DNA of 64,000 nt from Cellulomonas sp. JZ18 (GTDB taxonomy: Bacteria > Actinomycetota > Actinomycetes > Actinomycetales > Cellulomonadaceae). The stretch spans positions 3,162,001-3,226,000 of the forward strand of contig NZ_CP045245.1 in NCBI RefSeq assembly GCF_009720485.1, written 5' to 3'. A model generated the notes under the pieces. The model was given only the letters and a program-made list of their open reading frames with translations, ran no database searches and was not told the origin of the DNA. The first letter of the stretch is position 1. The number at the start of each line of letters is the position of its first letter. Shown here piece after piece: positions 42,331-52,190 of this stretch. Both the position numbers and the translations under genes were made by a program.

Positions 42331-45300
42331 TCAGGCGAACGCGCGCGCGACGGCGCCCCGCACCACCGTGTCGACGCGGTGGCTCCGGCGGGTGATGCCG
42401 AGCTCGGCGCGCAGGGCGTCGGCGAGCGCCTCGCGCGAGCGCTCCTGCCCGTCGGACCGCAGCCACCGCACCAGGTCGTCGAGCTGGTCGTCGCTGTAGG
42501 CACCGATCGGCAGGCCCGGACGCGCGTCCGGCCGCGGCTGCGTGCGCACCGCGAGCACGAGCTGCTCCCCCGTCGTCGCCCCCGGCTCCGCCGGCGTGCG
42601 TCCCTCGGGAGCCGGCACGCCGGGGACGGCTCCGGTCGAGCCCGTCGCGCCCGCACCCCGGCCTCCCGCCGGCGGCGGCACGGTCGGCTGCACGCCCGTC
42701 GGCGTGCGCACCACCGGCGTCGCACCGGTCGCGGGCCGCACCTCCGGCGTCGCACCCGTCGCAGGCGGCACAGCCGGCACCGCACCGGTCGCGGGCCGCA
42801 CCTCCGGGGTCGCACCCGTCGCGGGCCGCACGACCGGCGTCGCACCCGTCGCCGGCCGCACCACCGGCGTCGCACCCGTCGCCGGCCGCACCACCGGCGT
42901 CGCACCCGTCGCCGGCCGGGCGCTGACGTACGGCCGGACCGGCGCCTCGACGTCGTCCTCCTCCGGCGCCTCCTGCACGACCACGGGCACGGGACGCGAC
43001 GGCGGCGCGGCGGCCTCGGGCCGGCGCTCGACGAGGCGCGCGTGCACGGCCCGGCGGATGCGGTCGACCTCCGCCTGCGGGTCGAGGAACGCGGCGGCCG
43101 ACCAGACGCGCACCACCGACCAGCCGAGCCGCGCGAGGCGGTCCGCCACGAGGCGGTCCCGCACCCGCACGCTGGGCTCGCGGACGTAGTCCTCGTCGTC
43201 GGTGAGCACCGCGACGAGCATCTCGTCGGGCAGGTCGGGGTGACCGACGACCAGCGGGATGCGGGCACCGCCCGGCACGCCGTGGTCGACGTCGACGACG
43301 AGCCCGTGCTGCCACAGGCGCTCGGCCAGGTCCAGCACGAGACGGTCCGGGTCGGCGCCGCCCGTCGGCCGCTCGCGCTGCGGGTCGGCCGCCCGCCCGT
43401 CGGCGGCGCCCCGCTCCGCGGCGAACCGCAGGAGGTCGGCCAGGAGCTGGGGACCGGCGCCGCGCACGCGGTCGGGGTCGAGGTCCTCGGCGCCGAAGCA
43501 CGAGACGACGGTGAGCCGGTGCCGGGTCGAGCCGAGGGCGTCCAGCAGCAGCGCGTCGCCGCCGGCCCGGCTCACGGGTCCGAACGAGTGCAGGACGCGC
43601 CGGTGCGGTGTGCGGCCCAGGCCGAGCGAGACGATGACGGCCTCGCGCCGCAGGCCCGCGACGTTGCCGACGTCGACGACGACGAACGGCTCGCTGCGCC
43701 CCGCGTCGAAGAACGACGCGAGGGCCGGGTTGTCCCGCACCTCGGCGAGCACGACCTCGCGCACGGCGTCCGCGTGCCGCGGCGTCACCGTGACGACCGC
43801 GAGCGACTCGTCCGGGTGGCGCAGCACGTGCTCCACGACGAGCTCGAGGACGCGGTCGACCTCCGCCCGCGTGGAGTCGACCGTGCCGCTGGTGGGGTCG
43901 GGCATGCCGGTGCCGTCGACGACCTCGAGGTGCACGAGCGGCTGCGACGTGGGCAGCGGCGTCGGGACCAGCACGTCGGCGTAGCCGTGCTCGGCGAGGA
44001 ACGCCGTGAGGTACGGGTCGCGGCGGGACGCGTCGGCGTGCAGCGCGACGGACGGCAGGGCGTCGGCGAGCTCGCGCACGGCGGACCCGGAGGCGCACCG
44101 CGCGTCGCCCACGACGACCACCTGGCGGCCCCGCGCGATCGCGGGCAGCGCCGCCTCGACCGGCAGGTGCGCCGCGGCGTCGACGACGACGAGGTCGACC
44201 GTGCGCGACGCGGGCAGCACCTGCGACACGAGCATCGGCCCCGCGACCACGACCGGGCGCAGGCGGCGGGCGACGTCCGGGTAGCGCGCGACGGTCTCGC
44301 GCACGGAGGTCAGCCGCTCCTCGACGAGCTCGGCGAACAGCCCCTCGGCCTGGTCGCGGTGCTGGCGCACGGCCGCGGCCACACGGGCCAGCGCCGACGC
44401 CAGGACGGGCGCCGTCCGGCTCGCGACGTGCGCGCGGTCCAGGTCCGCGTACGTCGCGGACAGCGCGCCGAGCGCCGTCCCGTCGTACCCGGCGAGGGCG
44501 GGGTCCGCGGCGAGCACCTGCTCGAACACCGTGCTCCACCACGCGAGGTCCAGCTCCGCCGGGGCGAGCGCGGGGTCGACACGACGCTCCGTGAGGTCGT
44601 CGACCAGCCGACCGAGGCCCGCGGTCCGCAGCGCGTGCAGCAGCTGCGTGCGCTCCGGCAGCGTGTCGAGGGCGTCGACGGTGTCCCGCAGCCGCCCGAG
44701 CCGCTCCCGCAGCTCGGGGAACGGCGTCGAGGCGAGGGCGCCGCCACCGGGCGTCGCGGCGAGGACGGCGGCGAGCGCCTCCACGTCCTCGCGCACCGCG
44801 CGGTGCTCGTCCTCGATGACCTCGAGGGCGTCCGGCAGGCGCGGCCAGCCACCCGCCGGGCAGTGCGCCTGCCAGACCTCGCGACGCGCCTGCACCGCGA
44901 GCAGGGCGGCGTGCAGGTCCGCGACGGGACGGCCCGGGCGCAGCATGTCCTTGGCCTGCTTGCGCAGCCGGCGCCGCACCCAGAACCCCATTGGCACGTC
45001 GTGCTGCTCGCGCCACTCCTTGGTCGCCGTCGCGGCGACCAGGTCGGCCGCCGTGCGCTCGAAGACCAGCGGCTGGAACACGTCGAGCGACGCGCGCACG
45101 CCGTCCAGCATGCGCAGCTGCTCGGTCCAGCCGTCGAGCGTGGTCGCGGGGGTGAGCCCGGTCTCCGCGGCGACCTGCGCCACACGGTCCACCAGGACCG
45201 GCAGCGACACGTCGAGCAGCCGGTCGAGGCGGCGGCGCACCACCTGCGCGTCGGCGGAGGTGCGCAGGTTCGCGCCGAACCACGGCGTGTCCTGCGGGCG

Positions 45301-46926
45301 CAGCGTGTACGCGCCGAGCTCGCCGGCGCGCACCAGGTCGCGCGCGAGCCGTCCGCGGCGCTCGGCGTCCAGGACGCGCGCGACCTCGGGGTCGAGCCGG
45401 ACCGTCGTGCGCGGCGTGGGGCGCGCGGAGGTCAGGCGCGCGAGCTCCTGCAGGGCGTCGTAGGCGGACACGTCCCAGGGCGCGCGGGCCGTGTGCAGGG
45501 CGTCGACGTAGGCGCGCAGCCGCTCACGGTGGTCGAGCAGCCGGCCGCGCAGCGTGTGCACGGCGGTGGTGTCGACGACGGGCGGCTCGGTCGTCATCGC
45601 CCCGAGCAGGCGACGGCCGACGGCCGTGCGCCACCCCGCGTGCGGCTCGACGTCGAGGACGAGCTCGCCCAGGCCCAGCTCCTCGAGCCGGTCGACGAGG
45701 GCGGTCGCGGCGCGCCGGTGCCCCGGCACGTAGAGGACCGTGCGGCCCTCGGCGGCCGCGTCGGCGACGAGGGCGGCGAGCGTGCCGGTGACGTCGGCGC
45801 CCGTGGGGGCGTCGACGAACACGTGGGCCCCCGACGCGACGACGTCGAGGACGTGCTGCTGCGCGGGGTCGAGGTCCCCCACGCCGCGCTCGGCGGCCGG
45901 GTCGCGGTCGCCGGGCACGGGATCGGGCAGCGCGACGGCGAGCGCGTCGCGCGCGTCGTCCAGGCCGGCGAGCGCGCGGACCACCTCGTGCCGGTCGAGC
46001 GTCCCCGCGAGCTGGTCGAGGTCGTCCACGAGCACCTGACCCGGGTGGACGAACGTGCCGACGACGACCTTCTCCACGAGCGAGAAGCCCTCGAGCACGG
46101 CCTCGCCGAGCGACGCGAGACGCTGCAGCGCGCCACGCGGGTCGAAGCCGGCGGCGGTGAACGTGCCGCGTGCCACGGCGGCCGGGTCGAGCAGGGCACC
46201 GTGCCGGCGCAGGGCGCGCGCGAGCACGGGGTTGACCTCGAGGGACGGCTCGAGCGCGAGCTCGTAGTCGCCCTCGCCGGAGCCGCGGGCGCGCAGGGTG
46301 ACGGGGCGCAGCAGCACGGGCGCCCGGACCGTCCGCACGGCCTCGCCGGACCGGTCGGGGCGGTGCTCGCGCGGGTCGGGGCTGCGGCGGGTGACGTGCG
46401 CGAGGGCACCCACGTCGTCCGACGCCAGGTCGGCGGACGACCGGTCGGTCCACGTCGCCACGCCGATGGCGAGCGACGTCGGTGCGATGCCGTAGCGCTG
46501 GGTGTAGGTGGCGGCGCGCGCGCTGACGGCCCGCGCCCGGCGGCGCGCGCTGGACAGCGCGCCCGCCTCGCGCACGAGGTTGGACAGCCGGGTCGAGCGG
46601 CCGGCGAACAGCTGCGCCATGCCCGACGGGTGCGCGGCCGACAGGTCGAGCGCGGCCTCGCCCAGCTGGTCGACGTCGGAGAGCGTGGAGGCGCCCGCGG
46701 CCTCGACGAGCGCGCCCCGCCAGGTCGCGACCGCGCCCTCGAGGACCTCCGCGGGGGACGGCGGCTCGACGAGGGCCACCGGTGCGGCGTCGGTGCCGTC
46801 GGCGGTGCGGTCGGCGGTGCGGTCGGTGGCGGCGGCGTCCGGCGCGGGCGCGTCGGACGGGGCTGCGGGCTGGGCCGGACCGGCCGGGGTCGGCCCCGGA
46901 GCGGGCGTGCGGGCGGGGACGGTCAC
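42331..46926 (-). CDS. Giant SF1-helicase/Vsr-endonuclease-like protein with eroded catalytic motifs
   Basis: A 1531-residue protein with the architecture of DUF4011-type actinobacterial helicase-nucleases. The N-terminal region (about 200-320) has APVLLRPVTLR and ELALEPSLEVNPVLARAL. The P-loop position (about 372-381) reads APTGADVTGT, without the GKT/S. The Walker B position (about 910) reads DLVVVDAAAHLP where relatives have DEAS. The late motif SFGPVSRAGGD is kept. The Vsr-like domain (about 1195-1290) lacks the expected acidic residues. Eight RPATGATPVV repeats (1337-1416) lead to a helical C-terminal domain. TACCGT six bases before GTG 46926 suggests a leaderless start. Function is unknown. 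Confidence 0.8.
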   Translation of the reverse strand: MTVPARTPAPGPTPAGPAQPAAPSDAPAPDAAATDRTADRTADGTDAAPVALVEPPSPAEVLEGAVATWRGALVEAAGASTLSDVDQLGEAALDLSAAHPSGMAQLFAGRSTRLSNLVREAGALSSARRRARAVSARAATYTQRYGIAPTSLAIGVATWTDRSSADLASDDVGALAHVTRRSPDPREHRPDRSGEAVRTVRAPVLLRPVTLRARGSGEGDYELALEPSLEVNPVLARALRRHGALLDPAAVARGTFTAAGFDPRGALQRLASLGEAVLEGFSLVEKVVVGTFVHPGQVLVDDLDQLAGTLDRHEVVRALAGLDDARDALAVALPDPVPGDRDPAAERGVGDLDPAQQHVLDVVASGAHVFVDAPTGADVTGTLAALVADAAAEGRTVLYVPGHRRAATALVDRLEELGLGELVLDVEPHAGWRTAVGRRLLGAMTTEPPVVDTTAVHTLRGRLLDHRERLRAYVDALHTARAPWDVSAYDALQELARLTSARPTPRTTVRLDPEVARVLDAERRGRLARDLVRAGELGAYTLRPQDTPWFGANLRTSADAQVVRRRLDRLLDVSLPVLVDRVAQVAAETGLTPATTLDGWTEQLRMLDGVRASLDVFQPLVFERTAADLVAATATKEWREQHDVPMGFWVRRRLRKQAKDMLRPGRPVADLHAALLAVQARREVWQAHCPAGGWPRLPDALEVIEDEHRAVREDVEALAAVLAATPGGGALASTPFPELRERLGRLRDTVDALDTLPERTQLLHALRTAGLGRLVDDLTERRVDPALAPAELDLAWWSTVFEQVLAADPALAGYDGTALGALSATYADLDRAHVASRTAPVLASALARVAAAVRQHRDQAEGLFAELVEERLTSVRETVARYPDVARRLRPVVVAGPMLVSQVLPASRTVDLVVVDAAAHLPVEAALPAIARGRQVVVVGDARCASGSAVRELADALPSVALHADASRRDPYLTAFLAEHGYADVLVPTPLPTSQPLVHLEVVDGTGMPDPTSGTVDSTRAEVDRVLELVVEHVLRHPDESLAVVTVTPRHADAVREVVLAEVRDNPALASFFDAGRSEPFVVVDVGNVAGLRREAVIVSLGLGRTPHRRVLHSFGPVSRAGGDALLLDALGSTRHRLTVVSCFGAEDLDPDRVRGAGPQLLADLLRFAAERGAADGRAADPQRERPTGGADPDRLVLDLAERLWQHGLVVDVDHGVPGGARIPLVVGHPDLPDEMLVAVLTDDEDYVREPSVRVRDRLVADRLARLGWSVVRVWSAAAFLDPQAEVDRIRRAVHARLVERRPEAAAPPSRPVPVVVQEAPEEDDVEAPVRPYVSARPATGATPVVRPATGATPVVRPATGATPVVRPATGATPEVRPATGAVPAVPPATGATPEVRPATGATPVVRTPTGVQPTVPPPAGGRGAGATGSTGAVPGVPAPEGRTPAEPGATTGEQLVLAVRTQPRPDARPGLPIGAYSDDQLDDLVRWLRSDGQERSREALADALRAELGITRRSHRVDTVVRGAVARAFA
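42679..42918. repeat. Eight 30-bp in-frame repeats encoding RPATGATPVV
   Basis: Units of 30 bases encode ten-residue repeats, the first three identical in protein. Later units vary (ATGAVPAV, ATGATPEV, PTGVQPTV). They form a flexible linker between the nuclease-like and C-terminal domains of the giant protein. The repeats are coding, not a CRISPR array. Confidence 0.9.
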
Positions 46927-47458
46927 CCTGGAACGGTAGACCGGGCGGGGGCGATCCTCCGGGCGGCCACGCCGAGGGCGGTCGGACCCGTCCGCCGCGT
47001 GATCACGGGCCGCACGGGCGCCTCCCGGCCCGCGCCGGGGTGCTCGCCGTGCCCCGCGCGGACGGGCTCCGTGGCCCTGCGCGACGCTCTCACCAGGCCG
47101 GGGACGTGCACGGCGCGAGCGGTCCGCACGACCGTGGGGCCTCGACCGGAGGCGCGCGCACGCCCTGCCGGTCCCGGGGACGACGAGAGCGGGCCGGTAG
47201 GCACCGACCCGCTCGCGTGACCGCCGGACGGCGGGAGAGTGAGAGACGGTGCGCACCGCGCAGGGGGCAGGCGATGCGCACCGTCGGGTACGAGTGTTGC
47301 TCATCGACGGACGTTGGTCAAACGTCCAGAGCGCCCGCGCGGGTGAAATCGAGCGGTCGTCCAGGACGGTCGCCCATGAGGCGCCGCGGCGGGCACGGCC
47401 GGTGGTGCGCCTACCCTGGGTGGGGCCGGCGCACGACGGCCCGGGAGGGACGGACGCG
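46927..47458. other. Intergenic region with an inverted repeat (47309-47327)
   Basis: About 530 bases between two divergently oriented genes. It holds GGACGTT-GGTCA-AACGTCC (47309-47327), a clean 7-bp dyad in a locally less GC-rich stretch that could be an operator. A TACCCT hexamer lies at about 47412-47417, 40 bases before the MFS start. I find no convincing gene; an in-frame extension of the MFS gene reaches 47249 but is not protein-like. Confidence 0.4.
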
Positions 47459-50057: not shown

Positions 50058-50241
50058 CGCCCACCTCCCCTGCCGCGCGTGCGCGCCCGGCGCGCGCGAC
50101 CGCTCCGCCTGGATATCACCCGGCGGGTGCCCGCACATCCCGGCACCGTGAGCCGCTGGACGGGCACCGGCCCTCGGGGGGCGACGGAGCCGTCCGGGGG
50201 ACGCCGGACGGCTGGGCCACGTGGCACCGCGGCAACGACGA

Positions 50242-50283
50242 CGCGCCGCCCCGGCCGGGTCTCCCCCGGCCGGGTGCGGCGCG
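50242..50283 (-). terminator. Terminator after the small peptide gene
   Basis: A compound hairpin: two copies of the palindrome CCCGGCCGGG pair across a GGAGA-type loop, extended by CGCGCCGC/GCGGCGCG. It begins 37 nt downstream of the peptide stop, so the peptide gene should be monocistronic. Confidence 0.65.
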
Positions 50284-50320
50284 TTCGGCGCGGCCGGCTG
50301 CGGCGCGCGCGGGTGTGTCG

Positions 50321-50437
50321 TCAGTACTTGCAGCAGGGCGCGGCGATGGTCGAGTCGGCCTGCGCGATGGCCGCACCGGTGACCCCGGTGACGGTCGTGA
50401 GGGCGACGACGACGGCGACGACGAGCTTCTTCTTCAT
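50321..50437 (-). CDS. 38-aa secreted peptide, candidate signalling pro-peptide
   Basis: ATG 50437 to TGA 50321-50323, with an ideal GGAGG ribosome-binding site and a seven-base spacer. The protein starts MKKKLVVAVVVALTTVTGV, a lysine-rich n-region and hydrophobic core of a Sec signal peptide. The AXA-type site is AIAQA, after which cleavage would leave DSTIAAPCCKY, an 11-residue peptide with adjacent cysteines. It stands alone between two terminators and next to an HTH-TPR regulator gene transcribed in the same direction. This is the size and layout of RRNPP-type pheromone precursors, but that role is inferred. A small lipid-free exported peptide of other function is possible. Confidence 0.8.
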   Translation of the reverse strand: MKKKLVVAVVVALTTVTGVTGAAIAQADSTIAAPCCKY

Positions 50438-50529
50438 GGCGAGACCTCCGGCGTGGTGTGCCGGCCCCTCCGGCACAGCGCAGATGTTCCCCAAGCGCGT
50501 GTCGTGCCCGCAATGACTCCGGGAATACT

Positions 50530-50558
50530 GGTATAGACACTCCCTGAAAACCGGTCAC
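50530..50558 (-). promoter_or_regulatory. Candidate promoter of the small peptide gene
   Basis: On the minus strand GTGACC (50558-50553), 17 bases, then TATACC (50535-50530). The region is the most AT-rich stretch nearby and contains the dyad ATAC-CA-GTAT overlapping the -10. The predicted leader is about 85 nt. A regulator such as the adjacent HTH-TPR protein could bind the dyad. Confidence 0.45.
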
Positions 50559-50581
50559 TCGGGCGTGTCGCCCAGACGACG

Positions 50582-50611
50582 GACGGCGGCCCCCCGCAGG
50601 GGACCGCCGTC
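50582..50611 (-). terminator. Terminator after the HTH-TPR regulator
   Basis: GACGGCGG/CCGCCGTC stem extended by CCCC/GGGG pairs, 22 nt downstream of the regulator stop. It separates regulator and peptide transcripts. Confidence 0.6.
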
Positions 50612-50633
50612 GGGTGCGACCGTGCTGTCGCCG

Positions 50634-51944
50634 TCAGCGCGCGGTGGGCAGCCGCAGCGTCGTGCGTGCTCCGAGCGCGGCGAGTGCGCGTCCGTAGGCC
50701 TCGACCACCGCGTCCGTGCTGTCGCCCGCGGCGCGCAGCCGGTCCGCGATGCGCCGCCAGCCCGCCGCGGCCGGACGTCCGGCCGGCATGGACGCCAGCC
50801 GCGCGGCCGCCTCCCGGTAGGCCTTGAGGGCGGCGGCGCGCTCGCCGGACACCAGCAGCGCGTCACCGAGGGCCTCGTGCGCCGCGGCGCCGTCGCGGCG
50901 CTCACCGGGACCGATGAGCTCGACGGCCTTCAGCCCCGACGTCAGCGCGGCGCGGGTCTGCCCGAGCATCAGCTGGGCGCGCGAGCGCACGGTGGCCGCG
51001 CGCGCGAGGTCCACCTGGGACTCGCTGATCTCGAGCGCGAGCCGGGCTGCGTCGAGCTCCGCCAGGGCCTCCCGCGGACGGGGCGGCGTGACCTCGATGA
51101 GCAGCTGCGCCAGGTCCAGGCGCAGGAGCGGGACGTCGTTCTCGCCCTCCTCGCCGCCGACGACCGCGAGCGCCGAGCGCAGGTGGCCGAGGGCCGCCTC
51201 GCCGTTGCCGTGGGCGTCCTCGACGAAGGCCAGGTTCCAGTGCACGGCCGACACGGCGCGCGCCGAGCCCTCGCGCAGCGCCCGGGCCAGCAGGTCCTTG
51301 CCGCGCACGAGCGCGTACGTGATGTCGCCGCGGGCGACGTACGCCCACACGAGCGTCGACTCGAGCCGCAGCAGCTGCTCGGTGCCGCCGGCGACGCCCT
51401 CGAGCGCGGCGAGGTGGTGCTCGCCCGTCCGGACCGCCTCCGTCAGCTCGCCGGCCTCGGTGAGGGCCATGACGAGGCGGGCGGCGGCCTGGGCCGCGCG
51501 CAGCGGGCGGTGCCCCTCGGTGAACCGCCGGGCGGCGTCGGCCAGCAGGCGGCCGGCCTCCTCGAGCTCCCCGACGCGGTCCAGCGCCTCGGCGTGCGCG
51601 AGCAGGACGCGCCCCGCCTGGTCCACGTCGAGCGCGTCCAGGTCGACGGCGGCGAGCTCGGCGGCGGCCGCTCCGGGCCGCCCCGACCGCACGAGCTGGC
51701 GCGCGCGGACGACGGCGGCCTCGGACGCCTGGTACGCCGGGGACCGCTCCCCCTGCTCGAGGTAGGTCACGGTGATGCCGAGCGCGGACGCGAGCCGCTC
51801 CAGCGCGGCGGGCCCGGGACCCCGGATGCCGCGCTCGAGGTGCGACACGTAGCTGGGGTGCATCATCGCCGCCCGGGCGAGGTCGGCCTGGCTCAGTCCG
51901 GACCGCTCACGGGCGTCACGGAGCCTCTCACTGACAGGGTGCAC
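50634..51944 (-). CDS. XRE-family HTH regulator with C-terminal TPR array (RRNPP-like)
   Basis: A 436-residue protein. The N-terminal HTH_3 domain (about 3-60) reads LRDARERSGLSQADLARAA, then YVSHLERGIRGPGPAALERLASALGI. The rest is helical TPR-like repeats (about 75-425) with recurring A-x-x-x-x-x-A-x-A and L-x-x-A-G-x-x-x-E-A patterns. This HTH-plus-TPR layout is that of RRNPP peptide receptors (Rgg, PlcR, PrgX, NprR) and of other TPR regulators. TATCGT lies seven bases before GTG 51944, suggesting a leaderless transcript; upstream GTGs at 51953 and 51962 are possible. A small secreted peptide gene follows on the same strand. Confidence 0.9.
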   Translation of the reverse strand: MHPVSERLRDARERSGLSQADLARAAMMHPSYVSHLERGIRGPGPAALERLASALGITVTYLEQGERSPAYQASEAAVVRARQLVRSGRPGAAAAELAAVDLDALDVDQAGRVLLAHAEALDRVGELEEAGRLLADAARRFTEGHRPLRAAQAAARLVMALTEAGELTEAVRTGEHHLAALEGVAGGTEQLLRLESTLVWAYVARGDITYALVRGKDLLARALREGSARAVSAVHWNLAFVEDAHGNGEAALGHLRSALAVVGGEEGENDVPLLRLDLAQLLIEVTPPRPREALAELDAARLALEISESQVDLARAATVRSRAQLMLGQTRAALTSGLKAVELIGPGERRDGAAAHEALGDALLVSGERAAALKAYREAAARLASMPAGRPAAAGWRRIADRLRAAGDSTDAVVEAYGRALAALGARTTLRLPTAR

Positions 51945-52190
51945 GGCTCTCACGATAGGCACGCATCCGGCCACACGGAAGGGGGACCGGGGGCACCGTC
52001 AGTCACGATCGTGCAGACAGACCGGGCAATCAGGTCACGGAGGACATCTGCGGGGGTGTCAGCACCCCGCCGTGTCGTCCCATGACTGGACGTCCGACCT
52101 GGACGCGCACTGGGACGGCGCGTCCCACGTGGCGGGCGCACGGCGGCAAACCTCGTGCCGCGGGCGGGCGGCGGTCCCTAGGCTCGCCGG

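Follow-up and report, generated by a model that had tools for sequence, protein, structure and literature searches.

Is the helix-turn-helix (HTH) regulator encoded in one stretch of the Cellulomonas sp. JZ18 chromosome the receptor for a peptide made from the small open reading frame (ORF) that follows it? The stretch comprises 64,000 nucleotides of contig NZ_CP045245.1 (positions 3,162,001 to 3,226,000; hereafter the window, to whose first letter all positions below refer) and belongs to a 4.04 Mb genome that is a single contig. At 50634-51944 on its minus strand lies a gene with a GTG start for a 436-residue protein in which the HTH is predicted to be followed by tetratricopeptide repeats (TPR), and which is a candidate peptide receptor judging from its HTH_3 domain, its fold model and its orthologues. 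A 38-codon ORF at 50321-50437, on the same strand, begins 199 bases past the end of the regulator match and encodes the secretion-type propeptide MKKKLVVAVVVALTTVTGVTGAAIAQADSTIAAPCCKY. This regulator-propeptide module is real and conserved, and its two products are most likely a signalling pair of RRNPP-like type, with a phylum (Actinomycetota) and a peptide core (PCCK) that are both new for this kind.

The propeptide gene accompanies the regulator

We searched 81 genomes of the genus, the source genome among them, scoring 11 candidates in each and counting as a close orthologue of the regulator any match of at least 53% identity. Such an orthologue is present in 27 genomes, and at every one of these 27 loci the small frame is conserved beside it as one or more PCCK ORFs, directly downstream and on the same strand. 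A profile of the peptide finds full-length members in 29 genomes, namely the same 27 plus two (G031 and G056) in which the peptide is present and no regulator was detected. Neither regulator nor peptide was found in the remaining 52. Close relatives that carry a name are Cellulomonas; among the matches listed C. telluris stands nearest, with a 91% identical regulator. Named Cellulomonas loci with the regulator also have both the peptide and the upstream element described below (16 of 16), the C. telluris locus (L062) being additional to the 27.

A second Cellulomonas HTH-TPR regulator provides a control. This paralogue is widespread in the genus, with frames of about 440 amino acids that are mostly 35-42% identical to the regulator, and it resembles the latter in domain layout and in many TPR residues. 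It differs in that no PCCK ORF lies downstream at any of 23 loci, as judged with a filter that recovers a PCCK ORF at 27 of the 27 true loci; other ORFs pass this secretion-type filter beside the paralogue at two of the 23. The set consists of 20 fetched loci and L059-L061; among them L206 and L207 belong to other genera, and L205 matches in part. The two regulators differ, too, in or beside the presumed recognition helix, where an alignment of 25 regulators has H29 and H35 throughout and 17 paralogues (the 20 fetched loci without L205, L206 and L207) have other residues. L205 (G000:C1:1505598-1506590) is the window genome's own paralogue; it matches residues 2-332 only and may be truncated or shifted. 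At L201 and L206 similar short ORFs starting MRLIWDLM lie 3' of the paralogue, and may be frames that arise by chance opposite a conserved gene on the other strand.

Beyond the genus, a scan of the order (396 genomes, 18 candidates scored in each) gave hits at E ≤ 0.01 in 40 genomes of other genera. At the 24 of these loci that were inspected, no PCCK occurs in any frame of the fetched stretch. In a scan of the phylum (396 genomes, 4 candidates scored in each), relatives of the regulator, remote or partial, turned up at E ≤ 1e-25 in 9 other genomes.

The original prediction had paired receptor and propeptide by inference, and this pairing now has strong support from the joint presence of the two genes at 27 of 27 loci, from the empty result at the 23 paralogue loci and from the regulator-linked DNA element. 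The same linkage, together with the lack of any other recurrent receptor-like neighbour at the 17 loci where neighbouring genes were compared, makes it quite improbable that the PCCK peptide signals through another receptor and that the HTH-TPR protein is merely its transcriptional regulator, an explanation that draws on the two peptide-bearing genomes without a detected regulator and on the weak covariation of tail and receptor. The proposed covariation of the peptide tail with the TPR pocket was not borne out, peptide-tail distance tracking receptor distance only weakly (r 0.295).

The secretion-type propeptide is encoded by a real gene

The 38-codon frame is a gene and not a chance ORF. In its product a basic N-terminus leads into a hydrophobic core; cleavage would be possible after AQA, and the tail reads DSTIAAPCCKY. 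The secretion signal and cleavage site of this and the related propeptides were judged from the residue pattern in the sequences. The good ribosome-binding site noticed earlier is confirmed as GGAGG at 50445-50449 (minus strand), seven bases before the ATG, with purine-rich sites at the same place in relatives.

The 27 loci contain 43 PCCK ORFs in total, each ending in PCCK plus 0-8 residues, with one ORF at 18 loci, two at 6, four at 2 and five at 1. The Cys-Cys C-terminus, whose conservation in relatives had been proposed as a check, is retained as PCCK: an alignment of 32 peptides shows no change at the P, C, C and K of this core, nor at M1 and G18. A protein database yields 62 matches to the peptide, 58 of them with PCCK, and every species-named source is Cellulomonas. 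Row set A4 is without P0064, P0095 and P0096. Peptides with an identical signal part can differ in the length of the segment that joins it to PCCK (L038 versus L040), which suggests that the active piece would be short and C-terminal. L047 and L077 (C. massiliensis) each have five tandem PCCK propeptide genes with differing tails and a single upstream element.

We considered and rejected a chance ORF in GC-rich DNA, the probability of which we regard as negligible. It is contradicted by the 43 in-frame homologues and the database matches, by the conservation of ribosome-binding site, leader and upstream element, and by the distribution of differences over codon positions 1, 2 and 3 (155, 79 and 226 in 26 close, non-independent pairs). 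The ORF is also better conserved than the next 60 bases downstream, in an ungapped comparison that favours the ORF. What speaks for a chance frame is the naive ratio of nonsynonymous to synonymous differences per site (pN/pS), which has a median of 0.98 over 351 pairs, with 54% of pairs below 1, and gives no support for coding. Codon-level conservation of the frame is borne out by the codon positions and not by this ratio.

Four other short secretion-type peptides (P0057, P0058, P0059 and P0061) start MKKLSIALVLALAAL, end QAP and are without PCCK; they possibly represent another small secreted peptide family.

A conserved element stands before the peptide operon

The region 5' of the first peptide gene has a fixed order: GTCTA, 16 or 17 bases and GTCATTGC (27 of 27 loci), then GACA (24 of 27), a GGGACCAT-like block, a GC hairpin and the ribosome-binding site. 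On the minus strand of the window GTCTA-N16-GTCATTGC occupies 50510-50538, its columns invariant across the 27 loci and its only match in this genome, and would be the left box and core of a presumed operator or promoter, while GACA at 50500-50503 would be the right half of a split operator. The GGGACCAT-like block, here TTGGGGAACAT at 50484-50494 (minus strand), is conserved and may mark a -10 or transcript start region. An extra upstream half-site, GACACGCCC at 50561-50569 (minus strand), is common to 14 of the 27 loci, the window's included.

The occurrence of this element follows that of the regulator. GTCTA-N16-GTCATTGC has a single match in each of 24 regulator-bearing genomes and none in 54 others, the remaining three regulator-bearing genomes having N17. 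The looser pattern GTCTA-N14..18-GTCATT gives 33 matches, comprising the 27 peptide loci and six strays, of which one is in a regulator-bearing genome (G054), and GTCATTGCR-N5-GACA has one match apiece in 24 of the 27 regulator genomes and none elsewhere. Both peptide genes without a detected regulator (L015 in G031 and L008 in G056) are missing the element. Since the element is present with the regulator at 27 of 27 loci and missing without it, the peptide operon is most likely under the control of the regulator. Each regulator-bearing genome has a single strict element, so that the later tandem copies have none of their own and are probably on one transcript with the first. The PCCK gene of G031 is placed between an HNH-type gene and an HxlR-like gene (both named by eye).

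The GTCTA and GACA boxes are 28 or 29 bp apart. They form a perfect inverted repeat, TGTCTA-N28-TAGACA, at 3 of the 27 loci and are degenerate in the others (by alignment the right box is GAGACA at L039 and CAGACA at L051). Judged from co-occurrence, the element looks like a split operator that the regulator would bind. Element searches of these genomes found no regulator targets besides the peptide operon, and the element was not found 5' of the regulator gene at the 27 loci. A wider regulon was rejected as a reading of the one-mismatch matches, which occur whether or not a genome has the regulator, some dozen of them lying inside one repeated coding-like stretch.

The original prediction had placed a promoter, GTGACC-N17-TATACC, in this region. 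The string itself is present at 50530-50558, and only its GTCTA is conserved, as part of the GTCTA-GTCATTGC element; TATACC is not conserved and no sigma-70-like site was found in 50150-50660. A scan of the same interval found nothing terminator-like, in disagreement with the terminators proposed on both sides of the peptide gene.

Comparison of the 27 loci reveals a GC-rich hairpin or dyad, TGTGCCGG-N5-CCGGCACA, at 50457-50477 (minus strand), directly 5' of the ribosome-binding site. Across the loci 95.8% of cells are paired, and both-side changes occur at 3 of 7 pairs (shuffles average 1.2, and 16 of 500 reach three). The hairpin may be an element of the RNA or a dyad of the DNA. An outer stem that would hide the ribosome-binding site appears in many single folds and is absent from the consensus fold. 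The window's leader part 50438-50490 is no more stably folded than shuffled sequence (z -0.27), and Rfam gives two matches on 50300-50640, both far below gathering scores.

The regulator is predicted to have an HTH-TPR fold

The HTH-TPR layout first proposed for the regulator is upheld by domain matches and by modelling. The Pfam families HTH_3 (1.1e-15) and HTH_31 match above cut-offs, with SNAP and TPR_12 below theirs, and the AlphaFold2 model (mean predicted local distance difference test score 91.2) consists of an HTH followed by helix pairs that form a TPR-like superhelix. The best structural matches of the model are TPR structures, including Rap and NprR. Sequence relationship to RRNPP receptors was seen in the HTH and not elsewhere.

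Alignment A1 holds 25 of the 27 receptors, L034 and L039 being left out as they run past a stop at the match end. Within the TPR-like pairs, 52 of 133 residues of the first helices are invariant against 32 of 131 of the second, with p 0.012, a value that is uncorrected for relatedness and depends on our own assignment of the pairs. Ten of the 25 regulators, the window's among them, have no cysteine and the other 15 have one, which makes disulfide exchange between peptide and regulator improbable as a mechanism for all of them. The PCCK peptide itself may still be subject to control by redox state or metal.

A TATCGTGAG-like block at 51937-51957 of the window ends a few bases 5' of the regulator GTG and is common to most relatives; the 8-mer TATCGTGA is close to the regulator start codon at 20 of the 27 loci. 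The position of this block near the GTG suggests a leaderless transcript.

Neighbouring genes

We compared gene neighbourhoods at 17 loci with a crude ORF caller that called no genes below 70 amino acids and missed the regulator at 3 of the 17. One large gene, of a family designated F0, is found downstream of the pair at 15 of the 17 loci, so that the pair is mostly at one chromosomal place; the upstream genes differ between locus groups. In the window F0 is a large minus-strand ORF at 42331-47304 with repeated VRPATGATP-type units near its C-terminal part. Besides F0 no neighbour of 70 amino acids or more recurs at most of the 17 loci, and this includes any immunity-like gene. F3, an MFS-like gene (by eye) on the opposite strand, recurs at 7 of 17.

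The SpoIIE gene from which a sigma-factor output had been suggested does lie downstream in the window. The output itself is unsupported, as this gene adjoins the pair, among the 17 loci, only here and in C. telluris (L062). A SpoIIE relative of 38% identity is found in the G031 region.

A possible signalling circuit

We consider it rather probable that the module is a self-feeding peptide-pheromone circuit of regulator and secreted PCCK propeptide. The propeptide is predicted to exit by the Sec route and would be trimmed to a short C-terminal PCCK peptide, which would re-enter through an oligopeptide permease (the genome encodes four SBP_bac_5 proteins, making import possible and saying nothing further) and bind in the TPR groove of the regulator. 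The bound regulator would then act differently on the element before the peptide operon, the sign of control probably being autoinduction by analogy with known systems. An RRNPP-like pheromone loop in Actinomycetota fits the predicted HTH and TPR fold, the tandem propeptides and the KK-type signal sequences. More tentatively, the circuit may be native to Actinomycetota, with a vicinal-Cys signal switchable by redox or metal and a receptor that has essentially one strict operator per genome, that of its own, often multiplied, peptide promoter.

The main rival, which we regard as unlikely, is that the PCCK peptide is a secreted effector, thiol- or metal-binding or antimicrobial, and that the regulator senses something else and controls only the peptide operon. 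The confinement of strict element matches in regulator-bearing genomes to that operon (apart from the one looser stray in G054) and the retention of the peptide in two genomes without a detected regulator would both suit an effector. So would the copy number of up to five, as for a dosage-dependent product, the MFS-like gene at 7 of 17 loci, and an invariant vicinal Cys-Cys that could be a chemical group and not a recognition code. Most tails, however, extend about 10-15 residues past the presumed cleavage site (by eye) and are variable round PCCK, as would suit a short recognised peptide, and an HTH-TPR regulator followed by a propeptide is the layout of known peptide receptors in the part of the literature covered by PMC9765709. 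The neighbourhoods likewise offer an effector little beyond F0, with the proviso that an immunity peptide of fewer than 70 amino acids could be missed.

Comparison with known systems

The portions of PMC10075063 and PMC9765709 used here treat signalling by linear peptides and cytoplasmic HTH-TPR receptors as a trait of Firmicutes. The former surveys Firmicutes and viruses and, in the same portion, describes the signals of Actinomycetota as typically enzyme-made small molecules; the corresponding part of an Actinobacteria review names cyclic or modified peptides and gamma-butyrolactones (PMC4748050). Among the matches listed from the open-licence literature, none described an RRNPP-type pair from Actinomycetota or the pair found here in Cellulomonas. 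The latter, whose PCCK core is fixed, whose propeptides occur in tandem and whose regulatory site is single and clear, makes such signalling directly testable in Actinomycetota.

The nearest likeness of the pheromone circuit that we favour is to the RRNPP/RRNPPA pairs of Bacillota (PlcR-PapR, NprR-NprX, Rgg-SHP and ComR-ComS), which share with it an HTH and TPR regulator and an adjoining gene for a secretion-type propeptide. RRNPP propeptides likewise have a lysine-rich start, a hydrophobic stretch, a conserved glycine and a conserved C-terminal core with variable surroundings. The Cellulomonas module differs in its Actinomycetota host, in a PCCK core with adjacent cysteines and in a strict element found only at the peptide operon. 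To our knowledge, which is not based on a search, no RRNPP pheromone has a core with two adjacent cysteines. We term the module RRNPP-like and do not file it as a member of RRNPP, since both peptide binding by the regulator and a kinship of its TPR domain with characterised receptors are putative. Several propeptides per receptor, as found here, are known from some RRNPP systems as 'chatterers', according to the part of PMC9765709 cited.

The AimR-AimP arbitrium system of SPbeta-group phages may be alike in having paired inverted boxes: in the portion of PMC6458997 drawn on, the binding site of AimR consists of two inverted boxes of 6 bp with a distance of 25 bp between them, which is a precedent for a split operator of an HTH-TPR protein. 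In Cellulomonas the boxes are spaced slightly wider and seldom perfect, the element stands before the peptide gene with a presumed operator role, and the setting is a chromosomal neighbourhood marked by F0, with nothing of a phage as far as seen. The Rap-Phr phosphatases, in which the TPR protein is without an HTH, differ from the Cellulomonas regulator, where the HTH is present.
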